A stretch of 35,273 nt of DNA. It comes from Bacteroidota bacterium. Lineage in GTDB: Bacteria; Bacteroidota; Bacteroidia; NS11-12g; UBA955. Below the pieces are notes generated by a model, which was not told the DNA's origin, did not search any database, and worked only from the letters and a program-made list of their open reading frames with translations. How positions within the stretch are numbered: position 1 is the stretch's first letter; each line of letters opens with the position of its first letter. Shown here one piece after another: positions 2,062-8,156 of the stretch. The stretch covers positions 1-35,273 of the forward strand of contig RGEC01000003.1 of NCBI GenBank assembly GCA_009918425.1. The letters are read 5' to 3'. The position numbers and the translations under genes are program-made.

Positions 2062-3078
2062 CTAATCCAAAGACTTTTTGGGGAAAAGGAATGAGGAAAT
2101 ATAGGTCAACACCAAAATACAGCCCAAAACAAGCAAAGCATGAACCTCATTGAATCCCAGGTTTTGAAGTTGTTTTTGAAAAATCATCTTTACACCAATA
2201 AAAACAAGTATGAGAGACAGTCCATACTGAAGAGTACTGAGGTTTTTAATACCATGCCCGAGCAGAAAAAACAGGCTCCTCAATCCCATAATGGCAAAGA
2301 TATTTGAAAAGAAAACCAGGTAAGGATCGAGGGTTATCCCAAAAATAGCAGGCACACTATCAACGGCAAATAAAACATCTGTAAATTCTACCAGCACGAG
2401 CACAACAAATAAAATCGTTGCATAACGTTTGCCATCCTTTACCATAAAAAATTTACCATTGGGGTTCTTTTCTTCGCTGATTCTAAAAAATCGGGAAACC
2501 CATTTAAAAACACGATGATTTTCTGTGTCAATGGTATCATTATTATCTTGCGAAAAGAGCATTTTGAGACCGGTAACTATTAGAAAACCACCAAATAAAT
2601 AGATCATCCAGTGAAACTGCTGTATCATAAGTCCGCCCAAAAAAATGAAAAGAAATCTCATCAGAACGGCTCCAATAACACCCCATACCAGAATTCTCTT
2701 TTGATCAGAAAGACTGATACCGAATGAACTGAAAATAAGCAGCATAACAAATAGATTATCTACACTGAGCGAATACTCAACAAAATAGCCGGTTATATAG
2801 CTCACCAGTGCTTCTTTTGAAAAGGATTCCCGGCATTTACTTACATCATCAAATACAATAAAATTACTTTTGTATGTATCCTTGAAATTTCGGTAATCTG
2901 CTACAGAATGAAGGTTATGTAAATTGTGATGAAAGAAATAAATCACTATGGAAAACAATAGTCCTGCCGTTATCCACCCGACTGTGCGCCAAAGCGCCTG
3001 TTTGGATGTTAGTGCTTTTTGTTCTTTGCATACACCCAACCTAAAGTTTACTTTTGCATCAATTATTAAAATCAACAT
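2062..3078 (-). CDS. TerC/Alx family integral membrane protein
   Basis: This is a multi-pass inner-membrane protein of the TerC/Alx family, linked in known members to tellurite resistance, manganese export or metal loading of exported enzymes. The family motifs are clear: EYSLSVDNLFVMLLIFSSF, EFTDVLFAVDSVPAIFGIT, then SNIFAIMGLRSLFFLL. About eight hydrophobic segments are visible. The start is uncertain. The only ATG is at 3076-3078, giving MLILIIDAKVNF, which clips the first membrane helix. The track's TTG start at 3144 restores it but runs 68 bp into the S46 gene on the other strand. Between the second and third helices there is a loop (about HNLHNLHSVADYRNFKDTYKSNF) longer than in E. coli Alx as I remember it. 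The substrate is unknown. Confidence 0.9.
   Translation of the reverse strand: MLILIIDAKVNFRLGVCKEQKALTSKQALWRTVGWITAGLLFSIVIYFFHHNLHNLHSVADYRNFKDTYKSNFIVFDDVSKCRESFSKEALVSYITGYFVEYSLSVDNLFVMLLIFSSFGISLSDQKRILVWGVIGAVLMRFLFIFLGGLMIQQFHWMIYLFGGFLIVTGLKMLFSQDNNDTIDTENHRVFKWVSRFFRISEEKNPNGKFFMVKDGKRYATILFVVLVLVEFTDVLFAVDSVPAIFGITLDPYLVFFSNIFAIMGLRSLFFLLGHGIKNLSTLQYGLSLILVFIGVKMIFQKQLQNLGFNEVHALLVLGCILVLTYISSFLFPKKSLD
3025..3056 (+). promoter_or_regulatory. Bacteroidota-type promoter for the S46 peptidase gene
   Basis: TTTG (3025-3028), 20 nt, then TACTTTTG (3049-3056), a full match to TTTG-N19/20-TAnnTTTG. It lies 20 nt before the ATG at 3077, followed by an A/T-rich leader. The whole promoter sits inside the N-terminal codons of the oppositely oriented TerC-like gene. 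Confidence 0.75.
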
Positions 3079-5191
3079 GAGAAATATTACTGTAGTTGTG
3101 CTTTCCCTGCTCTGCGTAGGTTTGGTTTCTATTTCCGCCACCAAAGATGAGGGAATGTTTCCACTTAATTATCTTGATGAAAAAGCATTGCAGAATGCCG
3201 GATTGAAATTGTCAACAAAGGATTTATTCTCACCCGGTGAAGTTTCCCTGGCCAATGCATTGGTGAAAGTTGGTGGATGTTCAGGTTCCTTTATTTCTTC
3301 GGAAGGTTTAATTATCACTAATCATCACTGTGTATATGGTGGAGTCGCAGATTTAAGCACTGCAGACAATAATTATCTTGAAAATGGGTTTGTAGCCGCA
3401 GATAAAACCAAGGAATTGCCTATACAAATGCCCTGTAGGATAACCCAGTCCTTCGAAGATGTTTCTGCATTGGTTTTACAAGGTGTAACTAAAGATTTAA
3501 ATCCATCGGCCAGGGCAAAGGCAATATCAGGTAACATCAAAAAGATTCTTGAAGAAGAGAAAGTGAAAAACCCTGACCTGACAATGGAAGTTTCAGAAAT
3601 GTTTGTAGGAAAAAGCTACATGCTGTTTCGTTATCTTTTGATACCGGATGTAAGGCTGGTATTTGCGCCACCTGTCACCATAGGACAATTTGGAGGTGAT
3701 CTTGATAACTGGGAATGGCCAAGACACAATGGTGATTTTGGTATGGTGCGAGCCTATGTAGGCCCTGACGGAAAACCTGCTCCCTACAGCGAGAATAATG
3801 TTCCATTCAAACCCAAACGACACCTTAAAATAAATGCCAATGGCACCAAAGAGGGCGACTTCGTCTTTATCATGGGTTATCCGGGGCGCACCTACCGTCA
3901 CGAAAGTGCTCCATACCTGAAATTCCAGCAGGAAGTTCAGCTGCCTACCATTCAAAAATGGTATAGCTGGTATATACGGCAAATGAAAACATTGAGTGAA
4001 GGAAACGAGTCCAAGTTTCTGGCATTTGCAAAAGAGATTCAGGGGCTGGAAAATGTAGAGAAGAATTATCGGGGGAAAATGCAGGGATTGATGAGAACGG
4101 GTTTGGTTGATCAAAAAATAAACGATGAGGCTATGATGATGAAATTATCAGAAACGAAAAATGATGAGGCCATCAAACTTGCCATTCCAAAATTACAAAC
4201 CCTCTGGGCAAGAAAAACTGAACTGGCAGCTCAGCGTTACCATTACCAGTTCCTGTATAACCAATCAGGTCCATTCTATGCAGCCCAGTCAATAAGACAA
4301 TTTAAGAGCACATTTAACAAAGGCAATGCAGAGCAAAAAAAGAAAACCATTACAGCGTTTGCTGCCGCAATGCGGCAGAATTATACTGTTATTGATAAAA
4401 CCTTGGAAATTTCTGTTCTTAAGGAGCTGCTTCCAAAAATCAATGATAATCGAAAAGTTAAATTAAAAGTAAACGGGAAACTGCCCATAGCACAATGGAT
4501 TGATCAGAATTCAAAAAAAGATAAATTATTTGATACCGCCTTTGTATTTGGATTATTGCGAAACAATCCTGAAAAACTATTGAATTATCAAAGTGGCTTA
4601 ACCAAACTTTTTGATGAAGTTGAAGAAGAATCCATGCGTATAGAATATGAATGGAGCTTAATCGATCAGGAAATAAAAGCCATAATGCCTGTATACCTGG
4701 ATTTGAAGCAGGAATATAAAAATGGTCAATTTATTCCGGATGCTAACAGCACATTGCGTTTAACCTACGGATATATTAAACGATATAAGCCCAATGACGC
4801 AGAAATTCACATGCCTTACACCACACTCAAAGGGGTATTTGAAAAGGCCAATACCGCACCTGATTACCGATTGCCTTCCATTGTTGCTGATAAACTGCGA
4901 ATAAAGGATATACCCACAGTTTTTAAAGATAAAGAAACAGGAGAAGTGGCTGTGGCATTTCTATACAATCTTGATACAACGGGTGGTAACAGCGGAAGTG
5001 CCGTATTGGATGCAGATGGCAATCTGATTGGAATCAATTTTGACAGAAGCTTTACAGCCACCATCAATGATTATGCCTGGAACGATCAATACAGCCGAAG
5101 CATTGGATGCGACATACGTTACGTATTGTTTGTAGTCAAATATGTAGGCAAAGCGGATCATCTGCTGAATGAGATGGGCCTTTCTATCTGA
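3077..5191 (+). CDS. Family S46 dipeptidyl-peptidase (DPP7/DPP11 type)
   Basis: This is an exported serine exopeptidase that removes dipeptides from oligopeptides, a periplasmic amino-acid-acquisition role typical of Bacteroidota. I place the start at ATG 3077, not at the track's 2948. From 3077 the protein opens with a clean signal peptide (MRNITVVVLSLLCVGLVSISA) and sits just after a good promoter. The length is 704 residues, normal for S46. Catalytic elements are His84 (TNHHCVYG), an Asp in the DNWEWPRHNGDF stretch, and Ser639 (TTGGNSGSAV). Eighteen residues after the Ser is Arg657 (NFDRSF), the position that is Arg in Asp/Glu-specific DPP11 and Gly in DPP7. DPP11-like specificity is therefore my inference. 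It shares its start-codon bases with the TerC-like gene. Confidence 0.95.
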   Translation: MRNITVVVLSLLCVGLVSISATKDEGMFPLNYLDEKALQNAGLKLSTKDLFSPGEVSLANALVKVGGCSGSFISSEGLIITNHHCVYGGVADLSTADNNYLENGFVAADKTKELPIQMPCRITQSFEDVSALVLQGVTKDLNPSARAKAISGNIKKILEEEKVKNPDLTMEVSEMFVGKSYMLFRYLLIPDVRLVFAPPVTIGQFGGDLDNWEWPRHNGDFGMVRAYVGPDGKPAPYSENNVPFKPKRHLKINANGTKEGDFVFIMGYPGRTYRHESAPYLKFQQEVQLPTIQKWYSWYIRQMKTLSEGNESKFLAFAKEIQGLENVEKNYRGKMQGLMRTGLVDQKINDEAMMMKLSETKNDEAIKLAIPKLQTLWARKTELAAQRYHYQFLYNQSGPFYAAQSIRQFKSTFNKGNAEQKKKTITAFAAAMRQNYTVIDKTLEISVLKELLPKINDNRKVKLKVNGKLPIAQWIDQNSKKDKLFDTAFVFGLLRNNPEKLLNYQSGLTKLFDEVEEESMRIEYEWSLIDQEIKAIMPVYLDLKQEYKNGQFIPDANSTLRLTYGYIKRYKPNDAEIHMPYTTLKGVFEKANTAPDYRLPSIVADKLRIKDIPTVFKDKETGEVAVAFLYNLDTTGGNSGSAVLDADGNLIGINFDRSFTATINDYAWNDQYSRSIGCDIRYVLFVVKYVGKADHLLNEMGLSI

Positions 5192-5261
5192 TTCGAATTT
5201 ATTCTGTAACTCAGGTCACAAAGTTTTTAGTTTCTACATTTTTAATTTGCATAAAACAATT

Positions 5262-5570
5262 ATGGGATTAATATCAGCTTTATTTGGGAAGAAGGAGCCC
5301 CTTGATTTCAAAAAACTAATCAATGAAGGTGCTATCATACTGGATGTCCGTACCGTTGCAGAATTCAAAGGTGGACATATTAAAAACGCCAAAAACATTG
5401 CAGTACAAGATTTACAGTCACAGTTGAATATTTTAGATAAAAACAAAATCATCATCACATGTTGTGCATCGGGAATGCGCAGTGCTTCGGCCGCATCTAT
5501 TTTAAATAAGGCTGGATTTAGCGCCTACAATGGTGGTGGCTGGCAATCACTTCAACGCAAATTGTCATGA
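5262..5570 (+). CDS. Small rhodanese-like domain protein
   Basis: This is a single-domain rhodanese of 102 residues, a cytoplasmic sulfur-carrier or sulfurtransferase fold. It starts at ATG 5262 (MGLISALFGKKEPLDF). The track's start at 5169 would overlap the end of the S46 gene and add a non-rhodanese leader. The domain shows ILDVRTVAEFKGGHIKNAKNI, then the active loop CASGMR with Cys68 (C-X4-R), then the terminal GGWQSL. Its last codons overlap the thioredoxin start by 4 bp (ATGA), so the pair is translationally coupled. A combined sulfur or thiol-redox role is likely. The substrate is unknown. Confidence 0.9.
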   Translation: MGLISALFGKKEPLDFKKLINEGAIILDVRTVAEFKGGHIKNAKNIAVQDLQSQLNILDKNKIIITCCASGMRSASAASILNKAGFSAYNGGGWQSLQRKLS

Positions 5571-5872
5571 GCCTCAATTCATCATTTGATGCTCTGATTA
5601 GTGGAGATTTACCGGTCTTGATTGATTTTCATGCCACCTGGTGTGGACCTTGCAAAACACTGGCTCCCATTTTGGAACAAGTCAAATTGTCATTGGGAGA
5701 CGCTGTCAAAATTATTAAAATAGACATAGACAAAAACCCTTCCCTTGCCGGCAAGTTAAATATCAGTGGGGTACCTACGCTTATGCTGTATCATTCCGGC
5801 CAACTGATTTCACGAAAATCAGGTGTTTTGCCTGCTCATGAAATCATTAAAATGATACAAACCGGTAAATAA
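5567..5872 (+). CDS. Thioredoxin
   Basis: This is a 101-residue thioredoxin, a general cytoplasmic disulfide reductant. It has the canonical active site W25-C26-G27-P28-C29-K, the FHATWCGPC approach, and the cis-proline stretch GVPTLMLYHSG. No signal peptide is visible. It overlaps the rhodanese gene by 4 bp (ATGA) and is followed at once by a hairpin terminator, so rhodanese and thioredoxin end a short plus-strand unit. It could be a dedicated reductant for the rhodanese persulfide. That is inference from the coupling. Confidence 0.94.
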   Translation: MSLNSSFDALISGDLPVLIDFHATWCGPCKTLAPILEQVKLSLGDAVKIIKIDIDKNPSLAGKLNISGVPTLMLYHSGQLISRKSGVLPAHEIIKMIQTGK

Positions 5873-5917: not shown

Positions 5918-6610
5918 TTATTCAGGTTTGTTTTCTTCTTCGCCTTCCTGGTTTTCAGGAGTGTTTTCTTGTGAGGCTTCGGTAGTTTCAGTTTCCGAAG
6001 TGGTTTCTTCAGCCGATGCAGATACTTCAGGCTGCGTTTCTTCTGATGTTTCAACTACAGTCGTTTCTTCTGTAACCACATTCTCAACAGGAGCTGCAGT
6101 TTCTTCAATCACTTCTGCTTCTACTTCTTCGGCAACAACGGGTGTAGCCTCTACAGGTACGGTAGTTTTAGCGGTGTTTGATGAAGCCTTACTGCGACCA
6201 CGACGGGTTTTCTTCGCTTCTTTCTTATCAGTTCCAAAACCCTGGAAGTATTCATTAAAATCAACCAATTCAATGAATGCCATCTCAGCATTATCACCCA
6301 TACGATTACCCACTTTTAGAATACGTGTGTAACCTCCTGGTCTGTTAGCTACTTTGGCACCTACAACGGTAAACAGCTCTTTTACTGCTTCCTTGTCTTT
6401 CAGGTAAGCAAAAACAGTTCTTTGGTTGTGTGTAGTTGCGTCTTTACCCTTGGTAATCAGGGGTTCAACATATGTCCTCAAAGCCTTGGCCTTGGCCAAA
6501 GTTGTAGTTATACGCTTATGAATTATCAGCGACGATGCCATATTTGCCATCAGCGCTTTGCGGTGAGGCGCAGTGCGTCCTAAATGGTTTACTTTTTTCC
6601 CGTGTCTCAT
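5918..6610 (-). CDS. rplQ: 50S ribosomal protein L17 with long acidic C-terminal tail
   Basis: bL17 is a large-subunit protein near the tunnel exit. Residues 1 to about 125 are canonical ([64 protein letters not shown]). A short basic linker ([13 protein letters not shown]) follows. Then comes a tail of about 75 residues made almost wholly of Glu, Thr, Ser, Val and Ala ([14 protein letters not shown]). Total length is 230, against about 127 in E. coli. It is the last gene of the cluster, 5 bp after rpoA. Confidence 0.97.
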
Positions 6611-7631: not shown

Positions 7632-8156
7632 TTATTTAGAGTACAATTCCACAATCAGCTGTTCTTTTATATTTTCTGGAATCTCGGAACGCTCCGGGTA
7701 GCTGATAAATTTACCGGAAAGTTCACCACCATCCCACTCAAGCCAGTTAAAGCGCTTGCGAACACTACCTGCTGCGTCAGCAATTATCTCAAGCGATTTG
7801 CTGCGCTCGCGCACTGAAACAACATCACCGCGACGTGTGGGAGCGATACCCAAACGAAATACGGTATTGTCGAGACGTGCCTCAAGGAACTTCAACAAGT
7901 TTTCACCGGTAATTCCCTTTTTGGCTGCGGCTTTTTTGAATAAGTTTCTGAACTGCTTCTCCAAAAGACCATAAGTATACTTAGCCTTCTGTTTTTCAGC
8001 CAACTGCACTGCGTATTCAGATAATTTGGGCCTTCTGCGGCTGTTGCCGTGCTGACCCGGACCATAGTTTTTCTTTTCCAACGCCTTATCGCGACCGAAA
8101 ATGGGCTCGCGGAAACGACGGGCTATTTTTGATTTTGGACCTCTGTATCTTGCCAT
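7632..8156 (-). CDS. rpsD: 30S ribosomal protein S4 with internal in-frame deletion in the S4 domain
   Basis: uS4 binds 16S rRNA early in 30S assembly. This copy has 174 residues, while Bacteroidota S4 is about 201. The N-terminus ([44 protein letters not shown]) and C-terminus ([14 protein letters not shown]) are normal. In the S4 RNA-binding domain the sequence runs [16 protein letters not shown] straight into [14 protein letters not shown]. The usual stretch of about 27 residues between them (AARQLVSH-H-TVNG--VNIPS----KP in relatives) is absent. The frame is kept and there is no stop. The junction falls between Arg109 and Gly110 (near 7829/7830). It is either a real deletion in an essential gene or an assembly error. 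Confidence 0.93.

Follow-up and report, generated by a model that had tools for sequence, protein, structure and literature searches.

Can a bacterium dispense with the core of the RNA-binding domain of ribosomal protein S4? The question is raised by the window analysed here, a stretch of 35,273 nucleotides (positions 1 to 35,273 of contig RGEC01000003.1) from the draft assembly GCA_009918425.1 of a Bacteroidota bacterium. Its minus strand carries rpsD at window 7632-8156; the gene encodes an S4 (uS4) of 174 aa and was identified from its open reading frame and translation and from matches to NCBIfam NF003717, TIGR01017 and PF00163. Compared with six genomes of the same genus, this gene is exactly 81 bp (27 codons) short in the DNA alignment, with no further difference in length. 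The lost codons fall between TRR and GDVV, and the sibling S4 proteins are 201 aa long. The junction is at about window 7828-7831 on the minus strand, as located by the DNA alignment and by a split alignment with three tied positions, and the gap recurs identically when G002, G005 or G006 serves as the comparison. A sequence-only reading of this DNA had reported an in-frame loss of about 27 residues and a length of 174 against about 201, and both observations are borne out. It had also placed the loss in the RNA-binding core. Indeed, PF01479, the S4 RNA-binding domain, has no Pfam match in the assembled protein, whereas the protein of the sibling G003 scores 64.2 bits, and the 27 absent residues hold most of this domain.

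What remains of the protein is readily recognized as bacterial S4. The S4/S9 N-terminal domain PF00163 is present (102 bits), NF003717 is passed with 202.2 bits at a cut-off of 116, and TIGR01017 is just passed (177.9 against 177.2). The neighbours are also those of a bacterial rpsD: the order is rpsM, rpsK, rpsD, rpoA, rplQ, and rpsD lies between rpsK and rpoA as in the siblings, colinear with G003. Among the 174 shared codons, 60 differ from G003 synonymously and 2 nonsynonymously, the retained residues thus showing two amino-acid differences from the G003 protein; the 27 missing residues with most of PF01479 are the difference that sets the assembled S4 apart. Judging from these codons, constraint on the retained part appears unaltered, and its codon differences look like those of an intact gene. 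This argues against an S4 long deprived of its RNA-binding core, in which more change would be expected.

The missing segment is otherwise conserved wherever it could be compared. We found rpsD in 54 of the 57 relatives searched. In 53 of these 54, the assembled S4, used as the query, matches as two pieces that flank the lost segment, within an open frame of at least 200 aa; the exception is G038, in which rpsD is split over contig ends. Moreover, the segment is present in each of the 80 GTDB loci fetched and is nowhere broken there by a gap of 10 or more, and S4 chains from solved ribosomes can be aligned with the S4 of G003 over its whole length. An alignment of S4 from close relatives was one of the checks named in the sequence-only reading, and it places the segment in the siblings as well as in the 80 GTDB loci. 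The same reading had named a second rpsD copy as one of the things that a shortened S4 might call for. Our search of the bacterium's own draft genome, in contigs of 3 kb and above, found no second rpsD, nor did the missing segment turn up elsewhere in it. Theoretically, the shortened gene could be real and an intact rpsD could lie in unassembled sequence or in contigs below 3 kb, since the draft (422 contigs, 2.38 Mb, 4.6% contamination) is 96.9% complete and was searched in its contigs of 3 kb and above. However, the relatives have a single rpsD, the siblings carry it at this same place, and a second copy would leave ten other gaps, described below, without explanation. We give this possibility hardly any weight.

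A compensating change in the rRNA, also raised in the sequence-only reading, deserves closer attention. The sole 16S rRNA gene found in the draft, at 3897-4560 of contig C85 (L038, G000:C85), is cut short by the contig end and interrupted by a gap at 4219-4220. Relative to the complete 16S rRNA of G003, 176 bp are missing between CTGGTACTGA and CTAACTTCGTGCC; G006 does not have this gap. Judging by where the standard primer sites 338 and 515 lie, we take the gap to correspond to about E. coli 326-506. It would then reach from the end of helix 13 across helix 17 into the first bases of helix 18, and presumably removes part of helix 18 and of the 530-loop pseudoknot. Helix 18 and this pseudoknot are required for decoding. 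The gap takes out part of the S4 binding region, including helices bound by S4. S4 is essential, and 30S assembly is nucleated by it where five helices of the 16S 5' domain meet in a five-way junction (PMC10931766).

At first, the 176-bp gap seemed to support a compensating change, and the two losses together, one on each side of a single contact, give the observation its most striking form. They also count against an artefact, since a genuine joint change would be expected to show just such an in-frame gap in rpsD and a 16S gap in the S4 binding region. One could therefore suppose a real deletion with a remodelled 30S, in which S4 lost its RNA-binding core, 16S rRNA lost much of the region bound by S4 (about E. 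coli 326-506), and the two losses compensate for each other. Both gaps are present as assembled, the searches yielded a single rpsD and a single 16S rRNA, and S4 nucleates assembly at a five-way junction of the affected 16S domain. Several observations speak against this. On either side of its gap, the 16S rRNA hardly differs from the complete gene of the sibling (99.4% over the right-hand 341 bp, and 120 of 120 bases around the junction identical to G003). A part of the rRNA that decoding needs would be gone, and the protein affected is an essential one whose retained part has kept its constraint. Finally, like gaps are spread over the part of the genome surveyed; they strike unrelated genes, most of them are out of frame, and the loss in 16S rRNA belongs to this genome-wide pattern. 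The compensating rRNA change is accordingly not upheld. The chance of a real, remodelled 30S seems to us very slim, and slimmer still is that of an entire Bacteroidota lineage with a 30S subunit from which the core of the S4 RNA-binding domain is missing, along with much of the five-way-junction region of 16S rRNA to which S4 binds.

One part of the wider pattern lies on the same contig as rpsD. The sequence-only reading had called everything else in S4 and in the 31 neighbouring translation genes normal. This is true of the ribosomal cluster, but the contig as a whole is not free of other losses. A second clean gap, of 107 bp, is located at window 3023-3030 (about 3026); a gene for a TerC/Alx-family membrane protein thereby loses its start codon and roughly 27 codons at its beginning, and the remainder of this gene occupies roughly window 2062-3026 on the minus strand. 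The deleted segment is present in G003, G002, G005 and G006.

A separate observation on this contig concerns window 5187-5603, where about 396 bp are present that are missing at the corresponding place in G003. The edges of this stretch are not clean, and a small rhodanese-like open reading frame (5169-5570, named by eye) sits in it.

As a further test of the double loss in S4 and 16S rRNA, fetched stretches of the bacterium's own genome were compared with G003, which gave 235 kb of alignable sequence at 80% mean identity; clean gaps of at least 40 bp were counted. There were 11 clean deletions and no clean insertions in the bacterium's own assembly, an asymmetry with a two-sided probability of about 0.001 under equal odds, and this count speaks against a real loss of the RNA-binding core. 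By the same procedure, G002, G005 and G006, three other members of the genus, gave neither deletions nor insertions against G003 in about 70 kb together, a small control for which a rate of one per 21 kb predicts about 3 events. The deletions measure 54, 74, 81, 93, 104, 107, 124, 176, 199, 204 and 419 bp. Four of the 11 lengths are divisible by 3, which is the chance level, and the remaining seven are not. Besides those in rpsD, the TerC gene and 16S rRNA, the survey located eight further gaps (54-419 bp relative to G003): at 6474 and 10137 of L152 (G000:C14), 1637 and 3290 of G000:C105, 2906 of C120, 1692 of C15, 5897 of C7 and 33642 of C1. Several of these break conserved genes such as greA, which has lost its C-terminal end, and the frame is shifted in a Fic-family gene, a histidine kinase gene and a 1312-aa gene. 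The rpsD and TerC gaps are not found in G002, G005 or G006, while the other eight were polarised by the integrity of the genes in G003 only. No Ns, whether from scaffold gaps or masking, occur inside the contigs read.

Deletions could also be real if the genome were deletion-prone or decaying, as in a symbiont, or if the consensus had taken up the sequence of a minor strain. An excess of deletions over insertions is likewise a product of decay. Nevertheless, small frameshifts and stops should be numerous as well in a decaying genome, whereas most mapped genes are unbroken: a screen built on mechanical open reading frames, which makes some of its flags spurious, flagged 25 of the 177 mapped G003 genes and left 152 without a flag, and several of the 25 are gaps already counted. 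This indicates that the genome is not in general decay. Its size of 2.38 Mb is on a par with the 1.9-2.5 Mb of the siblings, and the gaps strike greA and also rpsD and 16S rRNA, two genes that are retained during genome decay. Real deletions of this kind thus have only a slim chance.

The assembly does carry the gap in rpsD, no other genome compared shares it, and ten similar gaps accompany it. Many clean gaps that ignore both gene and frame lead us to read the shortening of S4 as an assembly error, and we consider it very probable that the 27-residue loss is an artefact of a draft assembly of the metagenome type, the cause being inferred from the assembled sequence. The assembly would silently have dropped short stretches, of about 50-420 bp, at many places in the contigs. 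One such dropout would have fallen in rpsD and, being by chance 81 bp long, left the frame open. Chimeric reads, contig joining without overlap and the resolution of strain bubbles are candidates for the failing step. The numbers fit: at roughly one gap per 21 kb in the surveyed part, a genome of 2.4 Mb would hold about 110 gaps, and with this many one would expect some hits among the ribosomal genes, of which there are roughly 60, a third of the hits staying in frame. The sequence-only reading had offered an assembly collapse as its alternative, and in the broad sense of an assembly error this is supported. Collapse of a repeat is ruled out, as a long direct repeat is absent at the segment ends: the junctions share 0-6 bp over the surveyed gaps, with 2 bp at rpsD and 0 bp at 16S rRNA. 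The gaps resemble the assembly errors known from metagenome contigs (misjoins and erroneous insertions or deletions; metaMIC, PMC9661791) in the clean loss at many unrelated places and in being confined to one assembly. Tools of the metaMIC type diagnose such errors by read depth and insert size, whereas here they were judged from the assembled sequence. The living organism itself most likely makes an S4 of the usual 201 aa, and its 16S rRNA is most likely normal as well.

The observations call for caution with this draft, which scores 96.9% for completeness and 4.6% for contamination. In the part surveyed, a stretch of about 50-420 bp is nevertheless gone roughly every 21 kb, with no N to mark the place. 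The losses in rpsD and 16S rRNA jointly mimic a co-deletion of protein and RNA in the ribosome, and absences of domains or frameshifts that are confined to this genome deserve distrust. For the biology of the organism, the shortened S4 is almost certainly without import: the bacterium probably has an ordinary S4.
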